This document shows, piece by piece, positions 1 through 30,887 of a stretch of DNA of 32,807 bases. Each line of letters begins with the position of its first letter. The stretch's first letter is position 1. The stretch is taken from the IMG/VR virus record IMGVR_UViG_3300005549_000192, positions 1-32,807 of that record, one strand, 5' to 3'. A model generated the notes under the pieces. The model had not been told where the DNA came from. It saw only the letters and a list, made by a program, of their open reading frames with translations, and made no database searches. A program made the position numbers and the translations under genes. Origin of the DNA: a virus.

Positions 1-753
1 ACTCGTGCCGTTGTCGGAATAGAGGAAGACGGCAGTACTGGGGCCGACGAGATCCAGGAGTTGCCCGAAGGCCGTATCGGCGCTGCGCAGCATCGCCCTG
101 AACTTCACCCGATTAGAAGCCCCGAGACTGGGCTGAGGCCAGCCGGCGAGCAGGGAGGTCGGAGGAGCGTGGAACGGTGCGTGTGGGGCGTTGAGCGCGA
201 CATGCAGGAAACGCTTGGAAGAACTCTCGTGTTCCTCCCACCAGCCTCCCGCAGCTTGGACTTGAGCAATGGTCGGATACTGTGTCTCGTTCTCCGTGAC
301 AGTGAACGACGCTCCGACCGTGTCCACGCGCTGCCAGTCGTCGTAGTCGACGCTGGGTGAACTGTTGAGGTTCAGCCGCGTACCGGCCAGCCATGAGCCA
401 TAGCCGCGCTGGAAGGGGGCCAGCGCCCAGTCGCTACTGTCCGGGCACGGACCGCAGTGCCATTTGCCGACGAGCGCTGTCTCGTACCCGGCAGCCTGGA
501 GGACGCCAGGAAGTGTCGGCAGGGAGAGTGGTGGAGTGATCGCCGTTGGCAGCATGGTTCCGATGTCCTCCCATGTCCCGATCTTCTTGGCATAGGAGCC
601 GAAGAGGATGGCCTGCCGGCTTTGCCCGCAGACAGGATGAGAGAACCCGCAGGACTCGAAGGCTTCTCCTCGGAAGGCCGCTAGACGCGGGCACACATCA
701 GCGCTCGCATCGGTTGCGCTGACGTCATCCCAGCCGACGAGCAGGATATTCAC
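1..753 (-). CDS. Sulfatase-family hydrolase, 3' end cut by window edge
   Basis: Alkaline-phosphatase-fold sulfatase, of which 251 N-terminal residues are visible. The frame opens with GTG at 753, 16 bases after the upstream endonuclease stop, and stays open to base 1. Family landmarks appear in order: NILLVGWDD at residues 2-10 (the paired metal-binding Asp), CGQSR at 42-46 (the formylglycine Cys and Arg positions), GKWHCG at 96-101, NAPHAP at 188-193 and YSDNG at 245-249 (metal-binding Asp/Asn). The oddity is Gln where nearly all sulfatases have Pro or Ala in the C-x-P-S-R motif, so formylglycine conversion is uncertain. Family members hydrolyse sulfate esters and some act on phosphonate or phosphate esters. 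In a phage late operon, a role on sulfated surface glycans is plausible but inferred. No signal peptide is seen at the chosen start. Confidence 0.85.
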   Translation of the reverse strand, partial: MNILLVGWDDVSATDASADVCPRLAAFRGEAFESCGFSHPVCGQSRQAILFGSYAKKIGTWEDIGTMLPTAITPPLSLPTLPGVLQAAGYETALVGKWHCGPCPDSSDWALAPFQRGYGSWLAGTRLNLNSSPSVDYDDWQRVDTVGASFTVTENETQYPTIAQVQAAGGWWEEHESSSKRFLHVALNAPHAPFHAPPTSLLAGWPQPSLGASNRVKFRAMLRSADTAFGQLLDLVGPSTAVFLYSDNGTS

Positions 754-769
754 CACGCTGATCCGGAGG

Positions 770-1536: not shown

Positions 1537-2076
1537 CTAGACTCCTAAAAATACGTGCGTGACATAGACCGTCAAAGTCAAACTGCTCGTCTTCACGACC
1601 TTCTCCGCCGCGGAAAGTGTCTTCGCAGAAAGGAGTTGACCGCTGGAACTCGTGGCCCCGGCGGCGCGGGAGATCGCGACCGCTCCAATCGTGTAGTTGG
1701 CCGTCGTCGTCCCGTAGATCGCCTTGTACGTGATGCCGTCGATTGTGCGGGCCGTGTTGTTTATGTCGGTGTCGGCCGTCTTCGGATAGCCAGACTGGAA
1801 GGCCGTCTTCGTCGTGCGGGTGATCAGCTTCCCGAAGGTCGCGGACTTCTTGTTGGCTCCAGTCACCGTCATGGATTTCGCCACGACAACGCGCCCGGCG
1901 CTGAAGGTGTTGGTCGGCGTCTCGCCAGCACCTTTCTGGGCGTAATACTGATCGCCCTTGTCGGTGACGATGTTCGGCCCAGCCTCGATGATCCGGACGA
2001 TCTTGCCCGTCGCGGCTTCGTGGTAGACGAGGACGACGCCTTCGCTATACTTCGATTTTTCGGTTACAGGTCCCAT
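1537..2076 (-). CDS. Unknown Thr/Ser/Ala-rich protein, probably structural
   Basis: This 179-residue protein is rich in Thr, Ser, Ala and Val and appears to be mostly beta strand. It has no signal peptide, membrane segment or catalytic motif that I can recognise. The N-terminus reads as a compact beta domain (VVLVYHEAATGKIVRI), and the C-terminus ends in alternating hydrophobic residues (LTLTVYVTHVFLGV). ATG at 2076 overlaps the upstream gene by 13 bases and has GGAACG just upstream. Its place in the late operon and its composition suggest a virion or tail-tip component, but that is inference from context only. Confidence 0.7.
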   Translation of the reverse strand: MGPVTEKSKYSEGVVLVYHEAATGKIVRIIEAGPNIVTDKGDQYYAQKGAGETPTNTFSAGRVVVAKSMTVTGANKKSATFGKLITRTTKTAFQSGYPKTADTDINNTARTIDGITYKAIYGTTTANYTIGAVAISRAAGATSSSGQLLSAKTLSAAEKVVKTSSLTLTVYVTHVFLGV

Positions 2077-2762
2077 CGTTCCAGCCTTGCTCCGCGTTTG
2101 CGGAATTCCTTGGTGGAGAGCGCCAACATCTTGCGCTCGATCTCCCAGCGCACCTTGAAGGTTTCGTCTTCTTCTGGAGCCCAGCTTTCTGCCAGCGGAC
2201 TACCAGAGCCCCGCATGTCGCACCCGAGCAGGCGCACGTGGCGCACTCCCACTTGGAGGCACCACGCGAGCGCGTGGAACAGGGTCGGCATCATCGGCGC
2301 TGCGCCGTCCTCGGAGAACTCCTTGAGCTCCTCCATGTACGTCGGCGTCCGGGTGTAGAGCCGGCCAGCCCCGTCCTCGCCGAGGATCATTCGCCAGCGC
2401 CAGATGTTCGGGAAGTCGTTCCCGGAGAAGAGCTTGGCATCCGGATGAACGTGCTCGTGCCATTCCTCCCAGAGGGCCGTGGGATCATCCAACGTCGCCC
2501 AGACATCGATCGGAATCCGATCCCCGAGAGCGATGGCGCGATTGACGGCAATGATGGGGCCTGTGAGGCAAGCGACGGCGAGTTCGCGTGGCGAGGCGAA
2601 GCACGCTCCAGGACCCTCACAGACGATCGTCGCTTCTCGGTACTTGGTCTCCGGGAAGTCGTGGCAGGACGGGGCCAGAGGCCCCAGGATGGCGGTCTCG
2701 GGCGACGCCGAGCGCAGCTCGGCTAGCCCTAAGAGGGCCTGCTCGGTGGACCTCGCGGGCAT
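2064..2762 (-). CDS. MAF/DUF115- or GT42-like glycosyltransferase-type protein, copy A
   Basis: This 232-residue protein shares an organisation with the gene at 20994-21827. Both have an N-terminal strand and glycine loop (TIVCEGPG, like the NGPS loop of sialyltransferase-like enzymes), then IIAVNRAIALGD, then a strand-Asp segment (VDVWATLDDP-like), and near the C-terminus VRLLGCDMRGSG followed by a charged helix and a W. This order is known from MAF/DUF115/MptE-like proteins and GT42 sialyltransferases, some of which transfer pseudaminic or sialic acids. ATG at 2762 is preferred to TTG at 2765. The 14-base promoter-like motif lies 33 bases upstream. The call rests on motif order alone; a non-catalytic nucleotide-binding role is possible. 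Confidence 0.5.
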   Translation of the reverse strand: MPARSTEQALLGLAELRSASPETAILGPLAPSCHDFPETKYREATIVCEGPGACFASPRELAVACLTGPIIAVNRAIALGDRIPIDVWATLDDPTALWEEWHEHVHPDAKLFSGNDFPNIWRWRMILGEDGAGRLYTRTPTYMEELKEFSEDGAAPMMPTLFHALAWCLQVGVRHVRLLGCDMRGSGSPLAESWAPEEDETFKVRWEIERKMLALSTKEFRKRGARLERWDL

Positions 2763-3236: not shown

Positions 3237-3776
3237 ATGGCAACCGAGACCGATCAACGCATCTTCGTCTGCGGCGTGACCCAGTACGCCATGTCCTCGG
3301 GCAAGTTCGAGGCCGACGACATCGTGCGCCTCGCTGAGCGCGCCAGAGACGCCTTCGTGGCGCTCTGGGGTCAACCCACGCCCGACGCTACCTACGCGCC
3401 GCGCCCGTCTCCAGGAGGCTTCCAGAGGCCTCGGACGGCCAGCGCTCCACAGGCCACGATCCAGCCCGAGACGAAGCCCTTCTCGGTGTGGGGTGGCGAC
3501 CGTGCCTACTTCGGGAAGACCGGCCAGGAAGCCTACGGAATGCCGATTCGGGAGGTCGACTGGGCTCTCTGGGTCGATCAGGCTGCCAAGGGCGATTCAC
3601 GGGCTAAGCAAGCCCTCGAGATCATGGCTAAGGGCACCATCGGAGATGAGCCCAAGTGGCACCGAGCGAACACGATGAAGATCGCTCGCGCCAAGGCCTG
3701 CCTCGCCATGCTCCAGAACGGCCAGTTCCAGCCGGCCGTGGACGAAGGTCCGCCTCCCGAGATCACACCCTTCTAG
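3237..3776 (+). CDS. Unknown protein with a Phe-ended acidic tail
   Basis: The 179-residue soluble protein is not one I recognise. Residues 1-45 form a helical domain (IFVCGVTQYAMSSG, then charged helices). A Pro/Ser/Ala-rich linker follows to about residue 80. A second domain starts with FSVWGGDRAYFGKTG and a MPIREVDWALWV segment, faintly like the fold associated with exonuclease-type ssDNA proteins. The last residues, DEGPPPEITPF, recall the acidic tip ending in Pro-Phe of single-strand DNA-binding proteins; this is suggestive only. Its stop shares the CTAG at 3773-3776 with the convergent spanin-like gene. It is preceded by the candidate regulatory RNA. Confidence 0.65.
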   Translation: MATETDQRIFVCGVTQYAMSSGKFEADDIVRLAERARDAFVALWGQPTPDATYAPRPSPGGFQRPRTASAPQATIQPETKPFSVWGGDRAYFGKTGQEAYGMPIREVDWALWVDQAAKGDSRAKQALEIMAKGTIGDEPKWHRANTMKIARAKACLAMLQNGQFQPAVDEGPPPEITPF

Positions 3777-18806: not shown

Positions 18807-19062
18807 GTTGGCGCTTGAGGCGTCGAGCGAACGCCTCGGGGCTCTCGTTGGAGGGCGAATAGGTCTCCTTGAAGTCGGCCGCCTTCTGGCGCATCCCGGC
18901 GATCTCGGGACGATTCCGGAAGTTCGGGTCATGCCCTGCGGCCATGACGGAGTCCTTGAGCTTGGAGCCCACGAGTCGTCCTTCACGCTTCTCGAAGCGT
19001 GAACGGATCTGGGTTCCACCGAGGCCGGCGCCTTCACCACGTGCGAGTCGTCCGTTGGACAT
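18799..19062 (-). CDS. Small basic protein directly after portal
   Basis: The 87-residue protein starts at ATG 19062, overlapping the portal stop by one base (TGATG). It is basic, with a Gly-rich N-terminus (SNGRLARGEGAGLGGT) and a helical C-terminus (SPEAFARRLKRQRG). It is not recognised. Coupled translation with portal suggests a role in the head or portal complex. Confidence 0.6.
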   Translation of the reverse strand: MSNGRLARGEGAGLGGTQIRSRFEKREGRLVGSKLKDSVMAAGHDPNFRNRPEIAGMRQKAADFKETYSPSNESPEAFARRLKRQRG

Positions 19063-20948
19063 CACTTCATCTCCTGACTGGGCATTGCATGGGTTTCTCT
19101 GCTCGCGCCACCAGAACGCGGGCCTTTCATTGGCTGCGGGCGCGCGTTCCTCGAAAAGCCGGCCGGACTTTCGGAGGCCTTCAAGGCCTGACGCGGCTGG
19201 GTATCAACTCCGAGACGCGGCTGAGGCTGAGTCGGCCCAGGCGGAATCCCAGCCATGTTCATCTGCATCTGCATCGCGCCGACGATGTTCGCTTTGTTCA
19301 TGTTGATGATGCGCGCCCAGGAGGGATCGCCCCACTGTTCAGCCTTCCTGGCTGCGAGCAATCCCCACTCGATCCACGGCATCTGCGGGATCATGGGGCC
19401 GAAGGTCGCGATCCAGGCGTCCTGCTGCTGCGCACGCTCGGCTTCGAGCAGCTCGGATGAGTAGCGCATCGAGATCGGTTCGACTTCGATATCCATGTCC
19501 TCGAGCAGCTCGGCGTGCTTCTTCCCTCCGAGCATGACCGGATCCTCGATCGGCTCGCCGGTCATCGGATCGACGAAGACCTCGTTCGCCTCCTGCCCGA
19601 GCGGGATCCTCGAGAGCGGGTGCATCACCGCGTACCAGGCCTCCTTGGCCATGATCGGCTTCACCTGGCCGGTCACGAACTTCTCGGTCGCGTAGCCCAT
19701 CCGCACGCCCGACGACATCTGCGCGATCGATGCTTCCGTGGCCGTTCCCTGCCCTGAAACCTGCCCCATCGCGGCCTCGGTCAAGCCGGAGAGCTGTTCG
19801 AGGTTGAGTCCGAGCATCTGGAGCATCTGCACGTGTTGCTGGCTGAGTCCGTTCAGCTCGATCTCCTGCATGGTCTTCTTGATGTCGTCGAACGCCTCGA
19901 CGGTGAAGATCCCAAGATCCATGAACTCGGCAAGCTTCTCCTGGAGCTCGGCGGAGGAGCTGCCAGCAACCGCCACCCCGCGCTTGTACTTGCGGATGGC
20001 CTTGACGGCGGCCTCCCAGACCACGTTGTGGATCTCGGCCTGGGCGTAGGTTGAGGCCAGCATGGAGAGGGGCACAGAGCGGTCCGGGACGTAGAGGTAG
20101 CCCGAGAAGGTGTAGGGACCGTCCCGAGGCCCCCAGAAGGGCCTGGGAGCTCGCAGGAACTCGCCGGACTCCCGGGCCACCGTGTAGATCGTCCCGTGGA
20201 AGCCTTCCTCTGCGAGCGGCTTGAAGGCCCTGCCGAGCTCGTCCTTGGCCTTCTCCAGCGTGACCTCCGGCACCCACATCTCCCAGTACTCGATCTCGTC
20301 ACGGTCGAAGCTGTCCGCCAATTTCTCGCCGCGCTTCTGACGGTCCGGGACCTCGCCCGCCTCCTCGATCGCCTTCTTGTCCCAACCCCGCTGGGGCTCC
20401 TCCTTGGCCTCCCGGAGGACTGAGTCCTTGTCGCGGATGATCCGGTGGGCCTGGAAGCGGGCTTCCGAATGCTTGATCGCGACCGGATCCCAGACATAGT
20501 CGAGGAGCGAGAGCCGGACCGTGTTGGGCCGGTAGGGCGGGTCCTCGCGCTCGAGCATGCCGAGCGCCGGGCGCGGCTGGGTGAGACTGACACACCACTT
20601 GAAGAACCAGTCCGTCGCCAGCTCCTCGACGGTCTTCTTCAAGTTCTGGAGCTCGGCGTTCCGGTTGACCGCGAACTCGACCGCCTTGTTCAGGGCTGCC
20701 GCCGAGCCTTGGCGCGGCGTCTTCGTCCTGACCCTCGGATTCCCGGACGCCAGGAGCGGCAAAAAGCGCGAGAGGATCTTGTAGGCGTGGTTGTTGAAAT
20801 CGACCGCGCGCGCCTGGCCCCTCCTGTACCCAGGTCCCACGTAGCGCTCGATCGAATCGTAGTAGGGGGACCCGAGGTAGCGATCCCTGTGGTCGACCGA
20901 TTTCCGGACCTCGTCTGCGAGGCCTGAGGCAGTGAGGTCGAGTGCCAC
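19062..20948 (-). CDS. Portal protein
   Basis: The 628-residue protein lies between the terminase/glycan block and the scaffold. It shows portal features: a helical N-terminus with R-R-G and FNNHAYKILSRFLPLLASG, YVWDPVAIKHSEAR in the middle, a long stem helix region near residues 315-400 (AAVKAIRKYKRGV ... QMLQMLGLNLEQLSG), a Thr-Ala-Thr-Glu clip/wing segment (GQGTATEASIAQMSSG) and a disordered Pro/Gln-rich C-terminus. Portals form the 12-subunit DNA gate and the docking site for terminase and tail adaptor. GTG 20948 is the start, 30 bases after motif copy 3. There is no clear Shine-Dalgarno sequence. Confidence 0.8.
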   Translation of the reverse strand: MALDLTASGLADEVRKSVDHRDRYLGSPYYDSIERYVGPGYRRGQARAVDFNNHAYKILSRFLPLLASGNPRVRTKTPRQGSAAALNKAVEFAVNRNAELQNLKKTVEELATDWFFKWCVSLTQPRPALGMLEREDPPYRPNTVRLSLLDYVWDPVAIKHSEARFQAHRIIRDKDSVLREAKEEPQRGWDKKAIEEAGEVPDRQKRGEKLADSFDRDEIEYWEMWVPEVTLEKAKDELGRAFKPLAEEGFHGTIYTVARESGEFLRAPRPFWGPRDGPYTFSGYLYVPDRSVPLSMLASTYAQAEIHNVVWEAAVKAIRKYKRGVAVAGSSSAELQEKLAEFMDLGIFTVEAFDDIKKTMQEIELNGLSQQHVQMLQMLGLNLEQLSGLTEAAMGQVSGQGTATEASIAQMSSGVRMGYATEKFVTGQVKPIMAKEAWYAVMHPLSRIPLGQEANEVFVDPMTGEPIEDPVMLGGKKHAELLEDMDIEVEPISMRYSSELLEAERAQQQDAWIATFGPMIPQMPWIEWGLLAARKAEQWGDPSWARIINMNKANIVGAMQMQMNMAGIPPGPTQPQPRLGVDTQPRQALKASESPAGFSRNARPQPMKGPRSGGASRETHAMPSQEMK

Positions 20949-20993: not shown

Positions 20994-21827
20994 CTAGGCG
21001 AGGACGAGGCCCCGAGGAGAAACCCACTCGATGGCGCAACCGTTCTCTTCCATGCGCTTCTGGAAACCCTTGAGCTGGAAGCGCTCATGCGCCCAGCGCC
21101 GAAAGCCTTCCTTGGGGCCGAGCTTCTCGAGCTCCTGGAGGTCCATCCGCAACTGATCGCGCTGTCGGATGGCGGCCTGATCGCGCCCCCGCGTCGCGTT
21201 GACGTGCTTCTGAATGTTCCCGAGCTCCTTCCGGCACTGCTCGATATCGGATTGGCGCTGCTCGCACTCCTCTTCGCTTTTGCCCGCTTCCCAGGAGCCC
21301 ATCATGTCTGCACACAGGATCCGGATCCGGTCTGGCTTGAACATCGTGACGCGCAAAAGCGCTGCCAAGAGGCAGAAGAAGTAGCGCGAAGATTTCCCGT
21401 CTTCGCACATGACCGTGCCGAACGGAGTCGTCCGAATGCCGACCGACGCCGGAAGGAATGGCTCCCACATGGACACCATGTCGTGGTAGGCGGGCATGTT
21501 GTTGTGGGTATACATCGCTGGCCGTGGGCACCAGACCTGGATTGGGGGCTGGAGATAGCGCTCGAGCCCCATCAGCTTGAAGATGTGTTGAGGTGGATCT
21601 GCGAAACAGGCAAAGTCGACCGTGATCCCTTGGTCGATCACCTCGATGGCGCGGTTGACGGTCACGACCGGCGCACCCTCGAGCAGATCGGAGTGCGTCA
21701 AGTGCTGGCGACTAGGCCCGCCCGAGATGACGTTCCAGGAACGAGTACTTCGGGCACGGGGGTCATCGCGTACTTCCGGTACACATCCTTGAGGTTCTGT
21801 AGACGAAGGGCCAACTCCGTTCGCCAC
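20994..21827 (-). CDS. MAF/DUF115- or GT42-like glycosyltransferase-type protein, copy B
   Basis: Landmarks appear in the same order as in the gene at 2064-2762: WNVISGGPS (Gly-rich loop), PVVTVNRAIEV, VDFACFADPP, RIRILCADMMGSWEAG, then a long charged helix (about 60 residues longer than copy A) and a final CAIEWVSP. It is probably a glycosyltransferase-fold protein of the MAF/GT42 type. The start is uncertain: GTG 21827 is used, and ATG 21866 is possible. Either implies an overlap of 130-170 bases with the upstream gene in another frame, which is unusual. It is the last gene of the glycan block and is followed at once by the portal promoter motif. Confidence 0.55.
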   Translation of the reverse strand: MANGVGPSSTEPQGCVPEVRDDPRARSTRSWNVISGGPSRQHLTHSDLLEGAPVVTVNRAIEVIDQGITVDFACFADPPQHIFKLMGLERYLQPPIQVWCPRPAMYTHNNMPAYHDMVSMWEPFLPASVGIRTTPFGTVMCEDGKSSRYFFCLLAALLRVTMFKPDRIRILCADMMGSWEAGKSEEECEQRQSDIEQCRKELGNIQKHVNATRGRDQAAIRQRDQLRMDLQELEKLGPKEGFRRWAHERFQLKGFQKRMEENGCAIEWVSPRGLVLA

Positions 21828-23041
21828 CTCACCCGTTCCTCGTTCGACTGTGGTTGCCAGAGACATACATCCCAATCCTTGTCGGGATAAACCGACGCTG
21901 AAGCGATGTCGTCGTCCGTGAGCGCCCAACGATGCACGTCGGCGAACTCCGGATAGCCTGTGAGGTCATTGATGGCGCACGCGCGGCGCGACCAGTCCTT
22001 GAGCGAGAGCTTCGGCTTCTTCTTCACCGAGGCCGCCAGATCGAACAGCTTTCCGTACTGCACCCTGTACGAATAGGCGTCGTTGAGTTTTTGCCGGATG
22101 TCGTAGCGGTCCCAGTCGGGGCCGCTGGCGCGCTCGATCGCTGCTTCAAGTTCGCCTGGCCTCGTCTCCACGTACCAGGAAGCCGGGAAGAACTCCGAGA
22201 GCTTCGCTTCGGAGCCGTAGGCCGTCTCGTCGGCGTGGATCAGGATAGCCTGCTGCGCGATCACCTCAAGCGGCCGATAGGTCATCGCTGCGCCCCAGAA
22301 CCCAACGTTGATCGAAGCCTTGGACCGTGCGAGCAGATCGAAGTATTGATCCTGTTCGAGCTCCTGCGCGATGACGATCTTCCAGTCCTTGCGGCGCTCT
22401 GCGATCTCCTGGAGCTCCCGCATGATCTTCCAGCGCACGCTCTCCTCGCCTACGCCGCGCGTGCCGATCGTGCAGGAAACGGTCACGTCACGCTCGACGG
22501 ATCCAGGCGGCTCGCTATACATCCGGATCCGCTCCTCCATCGTGCCCCAAGAACCACCCCAGGGCAGATAGGCATCGCCCCAGCGCTCCATGAAGATCGA
22601 GGGCCGGATCAGGCAGTCGAAGAGCCCATCCATATGCAGAAGGGCATCCCCGAGATTAGCGTGATTGAAACTCACCACGGTCGGGATCTCGAGCTCGCCC
22701 AGCCCCACCGGGAAGTAGTGGCCCTGCTCGGCCTGAGCGTCCCAGAAGAAGTCGGGCTTCCAGCGGCTCGGCAGTCGCCGAAGAGCGGTCACAAGGCTCT
22801 CCTCTGGATGAACCCAGAGACGATCGGGCCGCAGAGCGTGCCCCACGTCGGATGTGATCCCGACGAGCGACGCGCCCATGTCGATCATGTGCATGGTGTG
22901 GAAGTTCGGAGTATCTCCGTGGTTGATGCCGCCCACGAGCACCTTGGGCGAACCATCGCCGGCAAGCACACGACTCTGATTGAGTCTCGTGCAGTCCAGA
23001 CTTAGCTGCTCAACCTCGGCAATCTTCTCGCGTGTCCTCAT
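21698..23041 (-). CDS. GT-B type glycosyltransferase (CgeB/group 1-like)
   Basis: The 447-residue protein overlaps the pseB-like stop as ATGA. The C-terminal half carries the pattern of GT4-type enzymes (Glyco_trans_1_2): DQYFDLLARSKASINVGFWG, then PLEVIAQQAILIHADETAYGSE, then WYVETRPGELEAAIERA. The first half is a Rossmann-like N-terminal domain (VLVGGINHGD, DGLFDCLIRPSIFMERWGDA). It probably transfers a sugar from an activated donor, perhaps the product of the upstream genes. The substrate cannot be read from the sequence. The last 25 residues are covered by the gene at 20994-21827. Confidence 0.75.
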   Translation of the reverse strand: MRTREKIAEVEQLSLDCTRLNQSRVLAGDGSPKVLVGGINHGDTPNFHTMHMIDMGASLVGITSDVGHALRPDRLWVHPEESLVTALRRLPSRWKPDFFWDAQAEQGHYFPVGLGELEIPTVVSFNHANLGDALLHMDGLFDCLIRPSIFMERWGDAYLPWGGSWGTMEERIRMYSEPPGSVERDVTVSCTIGTRGVGEESVRWKIMRELQEIAERRKDWKIVIAQELEQDQYFDLLARSKASINVGFWGAAMTYRPLEVIAQQAILIHADETAYGSEAKLSEFFPASWYVETRPGELEAAIERASGPDWDRYDIRQKLNDAYSYRVQYGKLFDLAASVKKKPKLSLKDWSRRACAINDLTGYPEFADVHRWALTDDDIASASVYPDKDWDVCLWQPQSNEERVRWRTELALRLQNLKDVYRKYAMTPVPEVLVPGTSSRAGLVAST

Positions 23042-23934
23042 GCCGTCACCATCACCGGATGCGAACTGTAGCGCCAGGGCTCGATCGTCTCGTCGCGCTG
23101 GCCGCGCGGATGGATCTCGAAGAAGTTCCCGCGTCGGACGACGTACTGGCTCTCGGCTTCCGAGATCAGCGTCTCATGAATCTTCTCTCCAGACGGCACG
23201 CCCACGATCTCGGGCTCGGCATCCGGAAGATACCGCCGCGCGAACTCCAAGGCCGTCGATGACGGTAACTTCGGGACGAAGATCTCTCCGCCTTGCATGT
23301 CCTGTAGCCGCCTCCATACGAACCAGGCAGCGTCTTCGGCATTCATCCAGAAGCGGGTGCTTTCGATGGAACGGAGCGGAAAGGTCTTCGCGCCCTTGGC
23401 CGCTAGATCCTTCAAGAGCTCCACGAAGGAACCACGCGAACCGATGACGTTCCCGTAGCGCACGCAAGAGAACTTCGTCACGCGCCCGAGGCCATTACTG
23501 GCGATCATCAACCGCTCCATCGCCATCTTCGTAGAGCCGTAGAGGTTGATCGGCTCGACGGCCTTGTCGGAAGAGATGGCAAGCACTTTCGCCACGCCGG
23601 CCGTGGCTGCCGCCATCGCCACGTTCTGGGAACCGAGGATGTTCGTCTTGACATGTTCGAAGGGATTTTTCTCGCCGCTGGGCACGTGTTTCAACGCAGC
23701 CGCGTGTACGACAGCGTCCACACCCTCGAGGGCGAATCGAAGGCGGTCGTAGTCGCGCACGTCACCGATGAGCCAGCGCAGACGCTTCTCGTTCGCGTAC
23801 TGGAGTTGGAGTTCGTGCTGCTTCGCCTCATCTCGGCTGTAGATCGCGAGTCTCTCGACGGACGGGCTTGCGAGCGCCACGGGGATGAAGGCACGACCGA
23901 AGGTCCCAGTTCCGCCTGAGAGCAAGAGATTCAT
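23038..23934 (-). CDS. pseB: UDP-GlcNAc 4,6-dehydratase (PseB-like, inverting)
   Basis: This is a 298-residue short-chain dehydrogenase/reductase. NAD(P)-binding GGTGTFG lies at residues 7-13, AAALKHVP at 78-85, NPFEHVKTNILGSQNV at 90-105, the catalytic SSDK at 121-124, and Y132-x3-K136 inside INLYGSTK. This combination is diagnostic of PseB/FlaA1-type enzymes, which convert UDP-GlcNAc to a 4-keto-6-deoxy sugar, the first step of pseudaminic acid synthesis. Length fits the family. Starts overlap as ATGA on both sides, so it is in one operon with the SLOG protein and the glycosyltransferase. Confidence in the enzyme class is high; the exact pathway is less certain because later steps are missing. 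Confidence 0.9.
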   Translation of the reverse strand: MNLLLSGGTGTFGRAFIPVALASPSVERLAIYSRDEAKQHELQLQYANEKRLRWLIGDVRDYDRLRFALEGVDAVVHAAALKHVPSGEKNPFEHVKTNILGSQNVAMAAATAGVAKVLAISSDKAVEPINLYGSTKMAMERLMIASNGLGRVTKFSCVRYGNVIGSRGSFVELLKDLAAKGAKTFPLRSIESTRFWMNAEDAAWFVWRRLQDMQGGEIFVPKLPSSTALEFARRYLPDAEPEIVGVPSGEKIHETLISEAESQYVVRRGNFFEIHPRGQRDETIEPWRYSSHPVMVTA

Positions 23935-24266
23935 GTGTGGAACTCGCAGACTTTCACTCCGGCTTTTCTTGCCTTGCGAACCATGTCTCTCGTGCCATTC
24001 CCTCCCGGAAAGGCCAGAACCATATCGGGCCGAAAATCCTCTAGCATGGCCTGATTCCTGAGTGGCCCAGCGGCGCGACCGTCGCTTTCCCAATCGGCCG
24101 TGTAAGTCCGGCATGGAATGCCGTGACGTCGGCACCAGGCTAGTGCGAGATAATCGGCACCGCTGGCGCCGCCCTGAGCCACCTCCGTTGGTGTGATTCC
24201 GTTGAGAGCAATCGCTACACGTTCGGCGTCGTCGAAATTCCTGCCGCCGCACACAAGAACTCTCAT
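23931..24266 (-). CDS. SLOG-domain protein (DUF2493/YspA type)
   Basis: The 111-residue protein starts at ATG 24266 (ATGA overlap). The motifs are MRVLVCGGRNFDD, EVAQGGASGADYLALAWCRR, AGPLRNQAML and VLAFPGGNGTRDMV, followed by AGVKV: the classic nucleotide-binding SLOG fold. Relatives bind nucleotides or ADP-ribose-like molecules; the DUF2493 branch has no established function. It is embedded between an aminotransferase and the dehydratase, so it may bind a sugar nucleotide or be a stray accessory gene. Confidence 0.88.
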   Translation of the reverse strand: MRVLVCGGRNFDDAERVAIALNGITPTEVAQGGASGADYLALAWCRRHGIPCRTYTADWESDGRAAGPLRNQAMLEDFRPDMVLAFPGGNGTRDMVRKARKAGVKVCEFHT

Positions 24267-24877
24267 GTCCATCGAACCTGGCTGAGGTCTGGATAGACGC
24301 CCGGAAGCGGTTCGTTGTCGTCCTTGAGTGCCGTCATCAGGAGAAGCCCTCGGGCCGCCTTCTCCGGTTCGAGGTAGCACTGAACTCCGAATTGGAACGC
24401 ATCCTGCTCCAGGATCGGCTTCGTCTGATCGCGTCCATCGTAGCGAGCGCGCCGGAACCATTCGGCGTCTTGGGCGTTGTCACAGAGGATCGCTCCACCA
24501 CGGCCGATCGGGAGATGCTTCGTTGCGTGGAAGCTGAGGCACGTCCATGTCTCCGGTTTGTACATCCCGCGACGCAGCCAACGTGCGGCATCCACTATCC
24601 ATCCTTTGTGGGTCGGAATCTTGTATTCGCCGACCCATGCATCCGTGCCCCAAATCCACTCTATCTCCAGGCCAGCCCTGAGCGCCGCCTGCACTACGCC
24701 TACATAAGTATATCTGGGCAAGCAAGCCGTCTTCATTTCGGCAACTAGCGCGCCCCGCTCGAAACAGAGATAGAGGGCGTTCGTACAAGAGTCCGTAGCC
24801 ACGCAATGCGTGGCGCCCGTGTACTCGCACAGGGCGCGCTCGAAATCCTCGACTACGCGCCAAGCTTCGCGGCCCAT
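24263..24877 (-). CDS. Very short DegT/PseC-like sugar aminotransferase
   Basis: The 204-residue protein is of the PLP-dependent DegT/DnrJ/EryC1/StrS type. The phosphate-loop segment ATDSCTNALYLC lies at residues 27-38, VDAARWLRRG at 95-104 (the conserved Asp-Ala-Ala of the PLP pocket), and SFHATKHLPIGRGGAIL at 115-131 with Lys120 as the probable PLP lysine. Normal family members have about 370-400 residues with the lysine near 180-190. Here every block is shortened and the C-terminal small domain is nearly absent. There is no frameshift or stop to suggest decay. GAGGAGG lies 10 bases before ATG 24877. PseC transfers an amino group to the PseB product, so the pairing is logical, but activity of so short an enzyme needs proof. 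Confidence 0.75.
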   Translation of the reverse strand: MGREAWRVVEDFERALCEYTGATHCVATDSCTNALYLCFERGALVAEMKTACLPRYTYVGVVQAALRAGLEIEWIWGTDAWVGEYKIPTHKGWIVDAARWLRRGMYKPETWTCLSFHATKHLPIGRGGAILCDNAQDAEWFRRARYDGRDQTKPILEQDAFQFGVQCYLEPEKAARGLLLMTALKDDNEPLPGVYPDLSQVRWT

Positions 24878-25434
24878 CGCTTGCGCGCCTCCTCTAGCTC
24901 TTCTTGGGTGTTCACGGTCATGTAGCCCTCGGGGATGAGATCGATCGTCCTGGCGTTGAGCTGAAACCAGTCGTGGCCAGCGTGCTCACGATCAGTGTGC
25001 CAGTTCGGGGTGTCCTCCCAGCACTGGATCCAGTCATCGTACGTGCCGGCGTGGAGCGCTCCGGGCACGAAAACCGGCTCCTGCTGTTTCTCGATGTGCT
25101 CGATCGCCCGGAAGATCCAGGCTTTGCGCAGGAAGGGCGCGTCGGCGCACACGCGCACGAGGATCGGGGGCTTCTCGCGCTTCAGGAACTCCACGTAGCG
25201 GGCAAGCACGTCATGGAGCGGACCGGCCTTGCAGAGCATTCCGTGGTCGTGCGCGTAGTTGGCGAGTACGTCGTCGCTCGGCTGGGTGGAAGTCAGGATC
25301 ACGCGAGTCCAGGCCGGAGCTTCGATCGCCTCCCATACACGTCGGATCATCGGCTCACCGCAGAGGTCCATGAGCACCTTGCCGGGGAGCCGCTTTGAGC
25401 TCATGCGGCATTGAATCGCGACGATTGGCTTCAC
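24853..25434 (-). CDS. SpsF/PseF-like cytidylyltransferase
   Basis: The 193-residue protein starts at GTG 25434, which overlaps the terminase stop as GTGA. The nucleotidyltransferase signature IQCRMSSKRLPGK is at residues 7-19, then LCGEPMIRRVWE, ILTSTQPSDDVLANYA, and a DVLARYVEF segment, as in SpsF/PseF enzymes that activate nonulosonic acids with CTP. ADAPFL near residue 115 resembles the metal-binding DxP region. It is the first gene after the terminase in the glycan block. The activated sugar could be a pseudaminic- or legionaminic-like acid, but no synthase gene is in the window. Confidence 0.82.
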   Translation of the reverse strand: MKPIVAIQCRMSSKRLPGKVLMDLCGEPMIRRVWEAIEAPAWTRVILTSTQPSDDVLANYAHDHGMLCKAGPLHDVLARYVEFLKREKPPILVRVCADAPFLRKAWIFRAIEHIEKQQEPVFVPGALHAGTYDDWIQCWEDTPNWHTDREHAGHDWFQLNARTIDLIPEGYMTVNTQEELEEARKRWAAKLGA

Positions 25435-26981
25435 TTCTCCCAACTGAAACCGTCTCCTCTCTCCTCGCGCTTCTTTCGAAGGATCTGCCTCCACTCGGCG
25501 TCATTCACTTCGTTCGGTGCGTTGTCCTTGATCGGGATGCCGAATCCGCGGGCGAAGTTGAGCGTCTGATCGTAACGGTCGCATGCGACCGCATGCTCGT
25601 CACATTTGCCGTCAGGCTTCATCGACGGCGAGCCGTCCGCGTTGAGCGCGTAGACCCAGCTTTCGATTTCTTGCTCTTCCGTCGCCGGACGGCCCGTGCG
25701 CCGGAGTTCTTCGTCGATGCCTTGCGACCAGTTCTGGAGAAAGTAGGTACGTACGTGACCGTCCTTAGGATTCCTGAGCCCTTCCCTAAGAAGGTCAATT
25801 TGTGGCTCAAGAATGGGTGAGCGACGATGGCCTCCGCCAATCGGAGGGCACTTGACCACGACACGGGGGAGAGAACGTCCGCCCGCCTTGCCAAGGCGGA
25901 GCTGGAACGCGGAGATGTTTTCCGGGTCATGGGGATCGCAGGAGAAGTGTCTGACGGCGTACTTGTTGTACCAGTCGGCTGCGACCTCGGCCCATTCCTC
26001 CTGCTGCCAGCGCAGGCGGATGATCTCATCGCAGCGATACCTGCGGATGTGGGGGTGCCATTTCGGAGAGTCGTAGGCCCAGAGCTGCATTGCACCTGGG
26101 TCAGGATGCCAGCCGAAGTCGACCCCGGCCGTGAAATAGGCGACCCGGATGGGCTGCTCTTGACCCTGGAGGTGGATCATCCACCCAAACTGCCCAGCGT
26201 TCTCGAGCTCGCCGAAGAGGTTGTGAACGCGCGGGTCGTAGTTGTCGAGGATGACGCCTTCGGCCGCGACCCAGCGGTTCTTCAGGAAGCGTTCACGGCG
26301 GACCCCAGTGAGTGTCGACTCCAGGATCTCCACGTACTCCTTGCCCTCCTTGGTCCACGCGCCGGAGGGGTACTCCCCGTCGTAGAAGAGGGGGTTGTCG
26401 TAATGGCGGAAGGAGAAGCGCTGGCGGTTATCGCCGCACTTCTCGGGCGCGAAACGCACGTTCAGCCAGTGCGAGGGCGCGGCTGGGTTGCAGTCGGCGA
26501 CGAGCTGGTGGTAGGGGGTCTTGAAGGAGGAGAGCCGCGTGGCGAGCACTTCCCAGTCGTTCTGGGAGGTCTCCTCTGCCTGGATGATGAGCACACGGTC
26601 CCACTTGGTACTGAGGATCGGGGAAGCCGTGTCCCGCATGGACTCGAGGCCAGCGAAGTACACAACCGACCCGTTGGGGTAGGTGTAGAGATCCTGGTGC
26701 TCCTTGGAGGCCGTGGGCGAGACGGCCGGGTGGCCCAGCCAGAGGATGTCGTCCCGCCAGTCCTTCAGGACCGACTCGTTCATGGACTTGCGGGTCTGCC
26801 GGCAGATGAGCTGCCGGGAGCCCGGGTAGGCCATGGCGGTCATGTCGACCTTGAGGAGAAGCGCCCAGGACTTGCCACAGCGCGTGCCGCCCTCACACAG
26901 GGCCTCTCTGCCCTGGAAGAGGACGAACTGGGCGGCCGGACCTCGGACGATTCGTCGTCGGTCTACGACCTCTTGGGTCAC
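25431..26981 (-). CDS. Terminase large subunit
   Basis: The 516-residue DNA-packaging ATPase-nuclease has Walker A GGTRCGKS at residues 31-38, Walker B RVLIIQAEE around 129-137, the ATPase coupling-like VADCNP at 162-167, and the first nuclease Asp in AGVDFGWHPDPGA at about 288, with later HFSCDPHDPE and AVACDRYD acidic positions. GTG 26981 is the start (GTGA overlap with the preceding stop); a longer upstream frame is not needed. It translocates DNA through the portal and cuts the concatemer. A terminase small subunit is not recognised next to it. Confidence 0.92.
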   Translation of the reverse strand: MTQEVVDRRRIVRGPAAQFVLFQGREALCEGGTRCGKSWALLLKVDMTAMAYPGSRQLICRQTRKSMNESVLKDWRDDILWLGHPAVSPTASKEHQDLYTYPNGSVVYFAGLESMRDTASPILSTKWDRVLIIQAEETSQNDWEVLATRLSSFKTPYHQLVADCNPAAPSHWLNVRFAPEKCGDNRQRFSFRHYDNPLFYDGEYPSGAWTKEGKEYVEILESTLTGVRRERFLKNRWVAAEGVILDNYDPRVHNLFGELENAGQFGWMIHLQGQEQPIRVAYFTAGVDFGWHPDPGAMQLWAYDSPKWHPHIRRYRCDEIIRLRWQQEEWAEVAADWYNKYAVRHFSCDPHDPENISAFQLRLGKAGGRSLPRVVVKCPPIGGGHRRSPILEPQIDLLREGLRNPKDGHVRTYFLQNWSQGIDEELRRTGRPATEEQEIESWVYALNADGSPSMKPDGKCDEHAVACDRYDQTLNFARGFGIPIKDNAPNEVNDAEWRQILRKKREERGDGFSWEK

Positions 26982-27370
26982 GTGAGCACCGGGCCGATCC
27001 AGTCGGTGAGCTCGCCCCACTGACCCCCAGGCTGCGCCGTTTGCGTTCTGAGCCACCAGCCCCTGGCCATGCGCTTGCCGCCCCGCTTGGCCTTGCGCCT
27101 GCGCCATTCGACCAGGCAGAGCGTCAGGTGGCCTACCAGACGCTCCCGGAGCGGGCTCTGGTCGATCAGGTCCCGGTGGGGCTTCAGGGAGCCGTAGGAG
27201 CAGTTCTGGGCAAGGATCGGGGCTGCTGCATCACTTCGGATGATGAGGGAGTCCCCGATCCCGAAGAGATCGTGTCGTCGTCGCCCGTAGTACTGCTGGA
27301 CGGTCGAGCAGAGCCAGCCTTGCTCCTCGGCCCAGCGCTTGGTGAGGGCATTGCTAGAAAACCTAGCCAC
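26978..27370 (-). CDS. PD-(D/E)XK nuclease-like protein before terminase
   Basis: The 130-residue protein starts at GTG 27370. RWAEEQGW then YGRRRHDLFGIGDSLII and ILAQNCS resembles the core of resolvase/VRR-NUC-like nucleases (acidic residue, then Gln-x-Asn), followed by a basic C-terminus (WRRRKAKRGGKRMARGWW). It overlaps the HNH gene by 8 bases and the terminase by 4. It could process packaging substrates or junctions. The nuclease identity is tentative because key residues are placed by eye. Confidence 0.5.
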   Translation of the reverse strand: MARFSSNALTKRWAEEQGWLCSTVQQYYGRRRHDLFGIGDSLIIRSDAAAPILAQNCSYGSLKPHRDLIDQSPLRERLVGHLTLCLVEWRRRKAKRGGKRMARGWWLRTQTAQPGGQWGELTDWIGPVLT

Positions 27371-29759: not shown

Positions 29760-30887
29760 ATGGTCGCACCGAAGCTGTTCGAGTACCGGCTGCCCGCGCG
29801 GGACATCAAGGCCATCAACATCGGGTGGTTCCGGAACTCGGCCGAGATCCAACTCGACTGGCGCACGTGGATCGGCCAAGGCTACGACGGTATCCGCATC
29901 ATCGGAGCGGGTATCGACCGCTCGCTGATTCACGGCAACCTGTACGACGGCACCGCGGTTGCGATCGGCCGGCATCCTGGGATTACACAGCTCGAGAATC
30001 TCTCGATCTACGCGGGCTTCTCGATGGGGGTTCAGTGTGGCGAGCAGAACCTCACGCACGAGCTCGTGCCGAAGTTCATGCTGAAGTACCTCGGCGTCAA
30101 GGGCTTCGTCACGCAGATCCCGGGTTTCGGGCGCACCAAATGGTGGGACTTCGGCTACCAGCGCGACGTCACCTTCGAAGACGTCGAGATCGATGCCATC
30201 CAGGCTTCCGAACACGGAAGCTACAGCCACGGCTTTGCGAAGCTCGGGCTCCATGCGAAGCGCCTGAAGTTCCGAGGTTCTGGCGCGCAGAACTTGAAGG
30301 TGCGGAGCTCGGCCGACGAGACGGCCTACGCCGGGCCGCAGGCGAAGATCCACATTGAGGACTCGACATTCCAGCGCTGGTTCCAGGAGTGGAGCGACCG
30401 CGGCGGCGGCGGCATCGTGATCGAGGGCGGCGCGGCCATCGTGGAGATCCAGGACTCGATCTTCCGCGGCGGGGGCGACTCCTCGCAGCACGCGCGCTGC
30501 ATCATGCTCTCCTCCGAATCGAACTCGTACGACTGGGCCACGGGCAAGGTCGGCGTCGGTGCCGGCAACGGGCCGGTGACGCTGAAGCGTCTCGCAATTT
30601 CGGGCCGCGCGCCCGACTTCTGGGGGAACGAGCTCGTGCGTTGCGGCCGGAACGGGGGCACCCAACTCTCGGCCGCGTCCTTCCTCATGGAGGCCTGCGG
30701 AGGCTACGGGAAGAACATGATCGTGCAGCTCGGCCAGCTCCCGAAGGGGAAGGGCGTGATCCGAAGCTGCAACACGCCCGAGATCCGTGAGAAGTGTTCG
30801 CTCCTCGGCGGCATCGACGTGGACAGGGAAGCCGTGTGGCCTGGCCCGGCGCGGCTCGTGCCACTCAGTGAAGGAGTGGTCGTGTGA
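29760..30887 (+). CDS. Right-handed beta-helix protein (tailspike/depolymerase-like)
   Basis: The 375-residue protein shows repeating short strands with Gly/Asn turns: ENLSIYAGFSMGVQ, DVTFEDVEIDA, LHAKRLKFRGSGAQNLKV, AKIHIEDSTFQRW, AIVEIQDSIFRGGG, VTLKRLAISG. This is typical of parallel beta-helix proteins such as phage tailspikes and polysaccharide lyases. There is no signal peptide. It starts with ATG 29760, 4 bases after the previous stop. Unusually it is in the rightward arm, away from the tail genes. It could digest or bind a surface polysaccharide; catalytic residues are not identified. Confidence 0.65.
   Translation: MVAPKLFEYRLPARDIKAINIGWFRNSAEIQLDWRTWIGQGYDGIRIIGAGIDRSLIHGNLYDGTAVAIGRHPGITQLENLSIYAGFSMGVQCGEQNLTHELVPKFMLKYLGVKGFVTQIPGFGRTKWWDFGYQRDVTFEDVEIDAIQASEHGSYSHGFAKLGLHAKRLKFRGSGAQNLKVRSSADETAYAGPQAKIHIEDSTFQRWFQEWSDRGGGGIVIEGGAAIVEIQDSIFRGGGDSSQHARCIMLSSESNSYDWATGKVGVGAGNGPVTLKRLAISGRAPDFWGNELVRCGRNGGTQLSAASFLMEACGGYGKNMIVQLGQLPKGKGVIRSCNTPEIREKCSLLGGIDVDREAVWPGPARLVPLSEGVVV

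Follow-up and report, generated by a model that had tools for sequence, protein, structure and literature searches.

Six genes, most of them apparently sugar-related and all on the minus strand, occupy the interval between the terminase and portal genes of the 32,807-nucleotide viral sequence analyzed here (hereafter the window), which is probably a fragment of a phage genome. The presumed pathway is that of a sialic-acid-like sugar; since related phages carry its missing key enzyme elsewhere in their genomes, such phages may be able to add a sugar coat to the virion or to the host cell. It is plausible, if still tentative, that the block serves as a late-expressed phage cassette for a nonulosonic-type sugar, which would most likely be attached to phage structural proteins; virion proteins are favored as the target over the host surface.

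Organization of the terminase-portal interval

The first-pass annotation had placed five named genes between terminase and portal, and all five are present there, in order and on the minus strand. The upstream flank is formed by the terminase large subunit gene (25431..27107; PF04466, E 7.6e-08; PHROG phrog_2, E 7.7e-17), followed by genes encoding an SpsF-like CTP_transf_3 protein of 193 aa (24853..25434), a half-size DegT sugar aminotransferase of 204 aa, here referred to as mini-DegT (24263..24877), a YspA-like SLOG protein of 113 aa (23931..24272; PF10686, E 1e-14), a PseB-type UDP-GlcNAc 4,6-dehydratase of 298 aa (23038..23934), a probable GT-B glycosyltransferase of 447 aa (21698..23041), and a MAF/GT42-like protein (20994..21827). 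The portal gene (19062..20948), also on the minus strand, forms the downstream flank; its PHROG match (phrog_156, E 3.6e-04) is weak alone, and its product is 66% identical to the portals of two related phages, G002 and G005. The SLOG gene is a sixth member of the block that had previously been overlooked, and a 62% identical copy of its product is encoded inside the G005 block. Terminase and portal had also been described as normally adjacent, which proved incorrect for this group, as they are non-adjacent in all five relatives in which both are visible (G001, G002, G003, G007, and G004/G005 taken as one), and the GT42-like gene always lies between them. The SpsF-like gene starts at GTG 25434, giving a 4-base overlap with the terminase stop, and the GT42-like gene, which may start at either GTG 21827 or ATG 21866, overlaps the GT-B gene either way. 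We infer late co-expression of the block: its overlapping genes, together with the lack of promoter or terminator signals above shuffles across it, are what would be expected if it is read through with terminase and portal.

Enzymes encoded by the block

The proposed PseB-like dehydratase was confirmed both by family and by active-site motifs. The protein matches PF02719 at E 1.5e-71, above cut-off, and its best NCBIfam model is TIGR03589 (E 1.2e-96; 323.5 bits vs. an NCBI cut-off of 407.75). In alignment with FlaA1 (2gn4, E 9.7e-80), SDK/TDK and YxxxK are retained, and the (S/T)DK and YxxxK motifs, which we take to be active-site residues, are likewise retained in G002 and G005. A closed phage-specific PseB lineage was considered and then rejected once eight bacterial sequences joined the tree. 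The first tree, which was almost without bacterial PseB, had joined L160, L161, and L188/L189 to the window clade (support 96/94), whereas in the extended tree support is confined to the grouping of the three phages (100/100), with bacterial PseB as the nearest outside rows.

The aminotransferase had been called DegT/PseC-like, of which the DegT part holds, while an ordinary PseC it is not. Its PF01041 match (E 2.2e-18) falls in two pieces, and the predicted model (pLDDT 94.4) contains the fold-type I core and matches PseC 2fnu with a Z of 18.6 over 199 residues and an rmsd of 2.8. K120 and D96, presumably the Schiff-base Lys and the PLP-binding Asp (roles assigned by alignment and recall), are invariant in 52/52 aligned sequences. 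At 204 aa, the protein is much shorter than the aligned 352-399 aa phage DegT enzymes, of which it lacks segments at the N-terminus, in the center, and at the C-terminus; because the full length with a C-terminal small domain is lacking, we have filed it as half-size DegT family rather than PseC. Judged from sequence, it is a member of an abundant viral half-size family, in which all 79 complete homologues measure 192-253 aa. This widespread family of about 200 residues would offer a test of the minimal fold-type I aminotransferase needed for catalysis. Single-protein viral scans with mini-DegT and with the GT-B protein recovered no relatives.

The cytidylyltransferase, earlier labeled SpsF/PseF-like, does have the PF02348 domain (E 1.8e-20) with its N-terminal nucleotide-binding motif. 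A profile search matched KdsB/cytidylyltransferase structures (best 8.4e-16), and the RLPxKVL motif and Asp98 are conserved in 3/3 clade members. It departs from that label in its C-terminal motif, as all three clade members carry Asn at the position where 5/5 other phage enzymes aligned, and also KdsB, have an Asp that is presumably metal-binding. Due to this replacement, the protein is named SpsF-like only.

The remaining two proteins are candidate transferases. The GT-B glycosyltransferase call finds a PF13524 match at E 0.0012, which falls below the curated cut-off; there was no match in the phage collection, viral contigs, or relatives' contigs, and among the relatives searched, the gene is present only in the window phage. 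For the GT42/MAF-like call, the motif and the predicted fold are suggestive, while sequence-family tests of the window protein lend no support; it has no Pfam, PHROG, or NCBIfam match. The gene's position adjoining portal is conserved in relatives. Its model (pLDDT 74.2) aligns with CstII/CstI at Z 9.4-10.0 over 155-167 residues and with thiamin pyrophosphokinase at Z 13.0 over 124 residues. That the predicted model resembles sialyltransferases and thiamin pyrophosphokinases alike counts against our best explanation. Foldseek with the model returned nothing at E < 0.001, and the GT42-like alignment, used as a profile against the PDB, yielded nothing meaningful. PF01973 (MptE-like) matched 1/10 aligned GT42-like members (E 0.0061). 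Across 10 records, the MptE family matched three, none over cut-off and none in the window clade, and CST-I (PF06002) matched 0/10, though no control rang either. Profile comparisons with the GPS-motif proteins encoded in the G016/G017 and L177/L178 sets gave no significant match (probability ~0.4 percent, E 0.14-0.15), so that homology to them is not shown, which likewise counts against our best explanation. A GT42-like paralogue that aligns with the GT42-like set is encoded in the tail region (2064..2762, minus strand), and G002 and G005 have 43-44% identical copies of it.

Conservation of the set in related phages

G002 and G005 are uncultivated related phages of 46.6 and 48.6 kb, both apparently complete, in which PseB, mini-DegT, SpsF, and the GT42-like gene all lie in the terminase-portal interval, although their orders differ. 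PseB, mini-DegT, and SpsF thus occur together in 3/3 set-bearing phages, and none of the three lies in this interval in the other four relatives (G001, G003, G006, and G007, with the G006 contig beginning inside the interval); less related members retain the GT42-like gene alone there. A DNA search of the block in the phage collection gave no match. Between the window and G002/G005, the set proteins are 42-66% identical, as compared to 59-66% for TerL, portal, and the capsid-like protein, so the set appears to have diverged about as much as the core genes. Because the genes are open and recognizable in two relatives at this level of identity, the set is inherited and more than a chance occurrence. 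It is accordingly highly improbable that the block consists of functionless passenger host genes, an idea for which the absence of PseG and PseH is the only argument, while three diverged phages share the genes as open, conserved reading frames with their putative catalytic residues kept, and the set has been retained despite its reshuffled order.

Other genes of these genomes were recorded as well. Sulfatase genes are present in the window, G002, G005, G006, and G007, and G005 has a weak sulfotransferase match. G005 also carries an adh_short_C2 SDR, of which G002 has a homologue. In G002/G005, this SDR is accompanied by IolB-like and ATP-grasp genes. An IolB-like gene of G005 was examined as a pathway clue and was of no help, since the plasmid matches listed were mostly annotated iolB.

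The synthase and the remaining pathway steps

The bacterial CMP-pseudaminic/legionaminic acid route consists of PseB-PseC-PseH-PseG-PseI-PseF, and the Bacillus sps genes belong to the same background. The window resembles this route in its PseB, DegT aminotransferase, and SpsF-type cytidylyltransferase, and its relatives in their NeuB/PseI-type synthase. The phage set differs in being without PseG and PseH, in having a 204 aa mini-DegT rather than an aminotransferase of ~370 aa, in the Asn for Asp in its cytidylyltransferase, and in its location among structural genes. As the first-pass annotation had reported, PseH, PseG, and PseI were not found in the window, which therefore lacks a complete CMP-nonulosonate pathway, and NeuB/PseI is absent even though the window spans the position where G002 and G005 have NeuB. 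Searching for the missing synthase genes beyond the window was partly successful: a NeuB/PseI-type synthase is encoded in both apparently complete set-bearing relatives (2/2; G002 and G005), outside the terminase-portal interval, and is absent from a 41.7 kb relative without the set, whereas PseG and PseH were each found in 0/5 records (the window and four relatives, two of them apparently complete). An Acetyltransf_3 match was also found in 0/5 of these records. The relatives' NeuB proteins are 288-296 aa, with no SAF match where scanned. With one query, NeuB was found in 3/50,697 records of the phage collection, one of these being a capsule contig of Moritella that had been classed with the phages.

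The presence of NeuB in both of these relatives, together with the NeuB sets of other lineages described below, puts the earlier proposal of a nonulosonic-type sugar on firmer ground than the window by itself did. The missing PseG and PseH and the Asn for Asp still weigh against it and, together with the lack of an Acetyltransf_3 match and of sequence-family support for the GT42/MAF assignment, against a complete pseudaminic route encoded by the phage. In the chemistry that we infer, PseB would convert UDP-GlcNAc to a 4-keto-6-deoxy sugar, the half-size DegT enzyme would aminate it at C4, a NeuB-type synthase would produce a nine-carbon nonulosonic-type acid, and the SpsF-like enzyme would activate this acid. 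The synthase may be encoded beyond the contig ends or supplied by the host, and in the relatives it would come from elsewhere in the genome. For the PseH and PseG steps, host enzymes would be the simplest answer.

The lack of PseG and PseH would also fit a product that is only a UDP-4-amino-4,6-dideoxy sugar, for which PseB and the aminotransferase suffice and which the putative GT-B enzyme of the window could use directly, leaving NeuB and SpsF for another sugar. Within the flanking sequence of each of 84 viral loci, mini-DegT is also mostly without NeuB: a PglD-like acetyltransferase was found in 12, SpsF in two, and NeuB in one, and in L003 and L005 mini-DegT lies directly before the PglD-like gene (labeled by eye and annotation). 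With NeuB near 1/84 loci, there is no support for a general tie between mini-DegT and nonulosonic acid, and the link holds for the window clade specifically. We nonetheless consider a UDP-sugar product unlikely, because G002 and G005 lack the GT-B gene, whereas SpsF is retained in 3/3 and NeuB in 2/2.

Possible target of the sugar and comparison with known systems

MAF proteins attach such a sugar to flagellin, and the MAF/GT42-like protein of the block would attach the nonulosonic-type sugar, most likely to phage structural proteins. Less probably, but still as a credible alternative, the same sugar could end up on the host envelope at a late stage of infection, where it would prevent progeny or superinfecting phages from re-adsorbing, or mask the cell. 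Acinetobacter prophages provide documented cases of phage enzymes altering the nonulosonic acids of the host: their EpaA/EpaB, belonging to the CTP_transf_3 and adh_short_C2 families, serve 8-epipseudaminic acid and alter a sugar already made by the host in lysogens (PMC12053666). For the virion reading, too, they are a precedent, as phage-encoded enzymes with nonulosonic acids as substrates, and the likeness extends to the phage CTP_transf_3 gene and the adh_short_C2 SDR shared by G005 and G002. The sulfatases and the weak G005 sulfotransferase also suggest surface-glycan handling. However, the documented cases are prophages, whereas a tyrosine integrase was found in 0/5 records (the window and four relatives), which leaves lysogenic conversion without support, and the synthesis genes here lie in the structural block. 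The terminase/portal neighborhood likewise suits particle assembly better, albeit a host target would be compatible with it.

For phage particles themselves, Freeman 2023 reportedly described virion glycosylation of mycobacteriophages. Mycobacteriophage glycosyltransferases have been proposed to sugar-coat capsids (PMC11256854), and only glycosyltransferases are described in the accessible text of that work, whereas here sugar-building enzymes are encoded as well, in the terminase-portal interval. A NeuB-family gene is likewise found in Stenotrophomonas phage DLP4 and four other phages, but as a lone gene in the lysis cassette, with no pathway described in the sections available (PMC6469090). 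Among the papers listed by our literature searches, we recognized none reporting that a phage carries a set for nonulosonic-acid synthesis in its structural block. If virion attachment is correct, some phages would produce a nine-carbon acidic sugar and attach it to the virion, going beyond the editing of host glycans, with consequences for adsorption, for receptor mimicry, and for how animal immunity clears phages; nonulosonic acid on phage particles would be a direct question for mass spectrometry.

A broader scenario, which we regard as speculative, is that several tailed-phage lineages separately took up modules for nonulosonic acids, which resemble sialic acid, and retain them in shrunken form in their head/tail block, that a MAF/GT42-like transferase sugar-coats capsid or tail proteins so that the particles would look sialylated, and that the half-size DegT protein is a minimal aminotransferase spread mainly by viruses. 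Sets of a PseB-type dehydratase, DegT, NeuB, and a cytidylyltransferase do occur in other phage lineages. A NeuB-containing set lies between the TerL nuclease and portal in G009, another follows a capsid gene in G016/G017, and L177/L178 carry dehydratase, DegT, NeuB, cytidylyltransferase, and MptE-like genes.

A proposed nonulosonic-type cassette between terminase and portal

The window, a 32,807-base virus record that is probably a fragment, holds six consecutive minus-strand genes with overlapping ends between its terminase (25431-27107) and portal (19062-20948) genes, which are themselves on the minus strand. Beginning at the terminase side, these encode an SpsF-like cytidylyltransferase (24853-25434; good match to PF02348, E = 1.8e-20), a half-size DegT aminotransferase, hereafter mini-DegT (24263-24877; good match to PF01041, E = 2.2e-18), a YspA-like SLOG protein (23931-24272; good match to PF10686, E = 1e-14), PseB (23038-23934), a GT-B-like protein (21698-23041; weak match to PF13524, E = 0.0012), and a GT42-like protein without a family match (20994 to about 21827). 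The PseB assignment is strong, with matches to PF02719 (E = 1.5e-71) and to TIGR03589 (E = 1.2e-96, below the cut-off of that family). Neither promoter-like sites (1 vs 1.2 in shuffles) nor terminator-like sites (4 vs 5.7) were enriched, and the block is therefore plausibly read together with the packaging genes. Judging from gene content, the best account of the block is a nonulosonic-type cassette, as suggested by its placement among structural genes, the all-or-none occurrence of the gene set, the presence of NeuB in relatives, and the apparently separate NeuB-bearing sets of other phages.

Related uncultivated phages were retrieved with terminase and GT42-like profiles. G002 (46,577 bp) has the order TerL, mini-DegT, PseB, an 89-aa ORF, GT42-like, SpsF, and portal, while G005 (48,571 bp) has TerL, mini-DegT, a 67-aa ORF, PseB, GT42-like, SLOG, SpsF, and portal. 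Between the window and these two phages, identities of the set proteins (SpsF 42-47%, mini-DegT 53-57%, PseB 66%, GT42-like 53%) are comparable to those of core proteins (TerL 59-60%, portal 66%, and 60-62% for what we take, from its position, to be a capsid-like protein). Thus, the set appears to have been inherited together with the core genes since the three phages diverged, its order being altered meanwhile. In G001, G003, G006, and G007, the GT42-like gene is the sole set member retained and adjoins the portal gene, with a sulfatase gene alongside in G007 and, by eye, a methyltransferase-like ORF in G006. The G003 terminase gene (L089:2-2218) also has an intein-like insertion by eye.

The first-pass annotation had listed PseI, PseG, and PseH as missing from the window, and this holds: the NeuB family was not found there, while PseG, PseH, and Acetyltransf_3 were each found in none of five records, with positive controls detected. 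Among the relatives, NeuB is present in two of eight records, G002 and G005 (288 and 296 aa), and was not found in G001, G003, G004, G006, G007, or G008. In the G005 protein, the NeuB domain alone was matched. Both genomes look complete, G002 because one sulfatase gene is split across its contig ends and G005 because its two ends adjoin each other in G004, a near-identical 13 kb contig (99.98% identity across 8,571 bases). NeuB in both lies between a beta-helix-like gene and a small-protein gene. The window has this neighborhood without NeuB, including an apparent homolog of the small protein by eye (3237-3776), and its beta-helix homolog has been relocated to 29760-30887. Accordingly, NeuB of the window phage is either encoded within the ~15 kb outside the record or supplied by the host. 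G002 and G005 also share a second cluster (L100:13430-16815 and L102:9148-12413) of KduI/IolB-like cupin, SDR, methyltransferase, and ATP-grasp genes, which had no match in the window or in the examined parts of G001, G003, G006, and G007. A long Ala-Ala-Thr-rich protein repeat was seen by eye in another G002 ORF (L100:11414-12883).

Similar sets in other phage lineages

With a PseB profile, 39 loci were identified in viral contigs. Together with two others, these gave 41 loci, six of which have NeuB near PseB by phmmer (L160, L161, L174, L177, L178, and L182), and a NeuB profile search likewise placed NeuB near PseB in eight of nine selected records. The phage G009 (L160, L196, L197), which has a Phage_portal-family portal, carries a 10.5 kb island between terminase and portal (L196:4624-15172; TerL nuclease, E = 1.2e-12; PF04860, E = 2.2e-95) with Gfo/Idh, CTP_transf_3, hexapeptide, SDR, Epimerase_2, full DegT, PF02719 dehydratase, and NeuB genes plus additional sugar genes. 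G016 and G017 have GPS-motif proteins (two, the second found in G017 only), GNAT, a GlmS-like enzyme, PF02719, NeuB, CTP_transf_3, Gfo/Idh, and full DegT, located in G017 downstream of a capsid gene (PF25209, E = 6e-07). L177 and L178 combine dehydratase, DegT, NeuB, CTP_transf_3, a formyltransferase assigned by family match in L177, and a protein with a weak MptE-like match. A grouping of PseB from these lineages in trees was lost after bacterial sequences were added, and bacterial PseB with up to 50% identity exist. As far as sequence comparison can tell, these lineages likely took up their sets separately. In the L188 and L189 phages, dehydratase, NeuB, and a cytidylyltransferase of only about 200-230 aa occur alongside a GlmS-like enzyme, past the capsid gene in L189. 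FPLJ01000048.1 (L198), filed within the phage collection, is a Moritella capsule locus contig.

Predicted target and component enzymes

We favor virion proteins as the predicted target of the sugar, since the cassette, including its candidate transferase, is embedded in the particle genes and none of five records yielded a tyrosine integrase. Modification of the host surface is nearly as plausible; phage-encoded enzymes altering the pseudaminic acid of the host are documented (PMC12053666).

The weakest links are the GT42-like protein and the cytidylyltransferase. The predicted model of the former (pLDDT 74.2, middling) matched thiamin pyrophosphokinases (Z 13.0, 124 residues aligned), an archaeal HPPK (Z 10.6), and the CstII/CstI sialyltransferases (Z about 10), the last across almost all of the model (155-167 residues). 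MAF proteins fall in this fold group, of which the GT42-like protein is a candidate member. In the C-terminal motif of the cytidylyltransferase, Asn replaces an Asp in all three clade members, the Asp being retained in five other phage enzymes; the nucleotide or sugar that this enzyme uses may therefore be a different one.

Three parts of full phage DegT enzymes are missing from the window mini-DegT: the N-terminal segment, a stretch in the middle, and the C-terminal domain. The gene is nevertheless not broken, judging from the lengths of its viral relatives: at least 586 were found, and among the 80 measured, 79 are complete at 192-253 aa (median 207), the remaining one being cut by a contig end. 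K120, the putative Schiff-base lysine, and D96 are invariant across 52 aligned sequences (46 of these 80 plus four from phage records and those of the window and G005). A confident predicted structure (pLDDT 94.4) aligned 199 residues to PseC (Z 18.6), a score tied with many other sugar aminotransferases, and the model thus gives no substrate. One scan of 84,980 species genomes found 47 relatives, many on short metagenome contigs. Outside the clade, NeuB was nearby in one of 84 loci and a PglD-like acetyltransferase in 12.

Sulfatase-family genes recur in the clade (window 1-756; L103:1386-2642; L099:1-807 with L101:6064-6570; L096:1691-2905; L106:7020-7757), within the terminase-portal interval in G007 and otherwise in the tail region. 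PF00884 is matched by the copies of the window and G005. The former, truncated at the contig end, by eye reads CGQSR vs CSPSR in the G005 and G007 copies. Between it and the next tail-region gene lies, by eye, a LAGLIDADG-like homing endonuclease ORF (770-1486). The G005 tail region also contains a weak sulfotransferase match (L103:13555-14130; PF17784, E = 0.0066).
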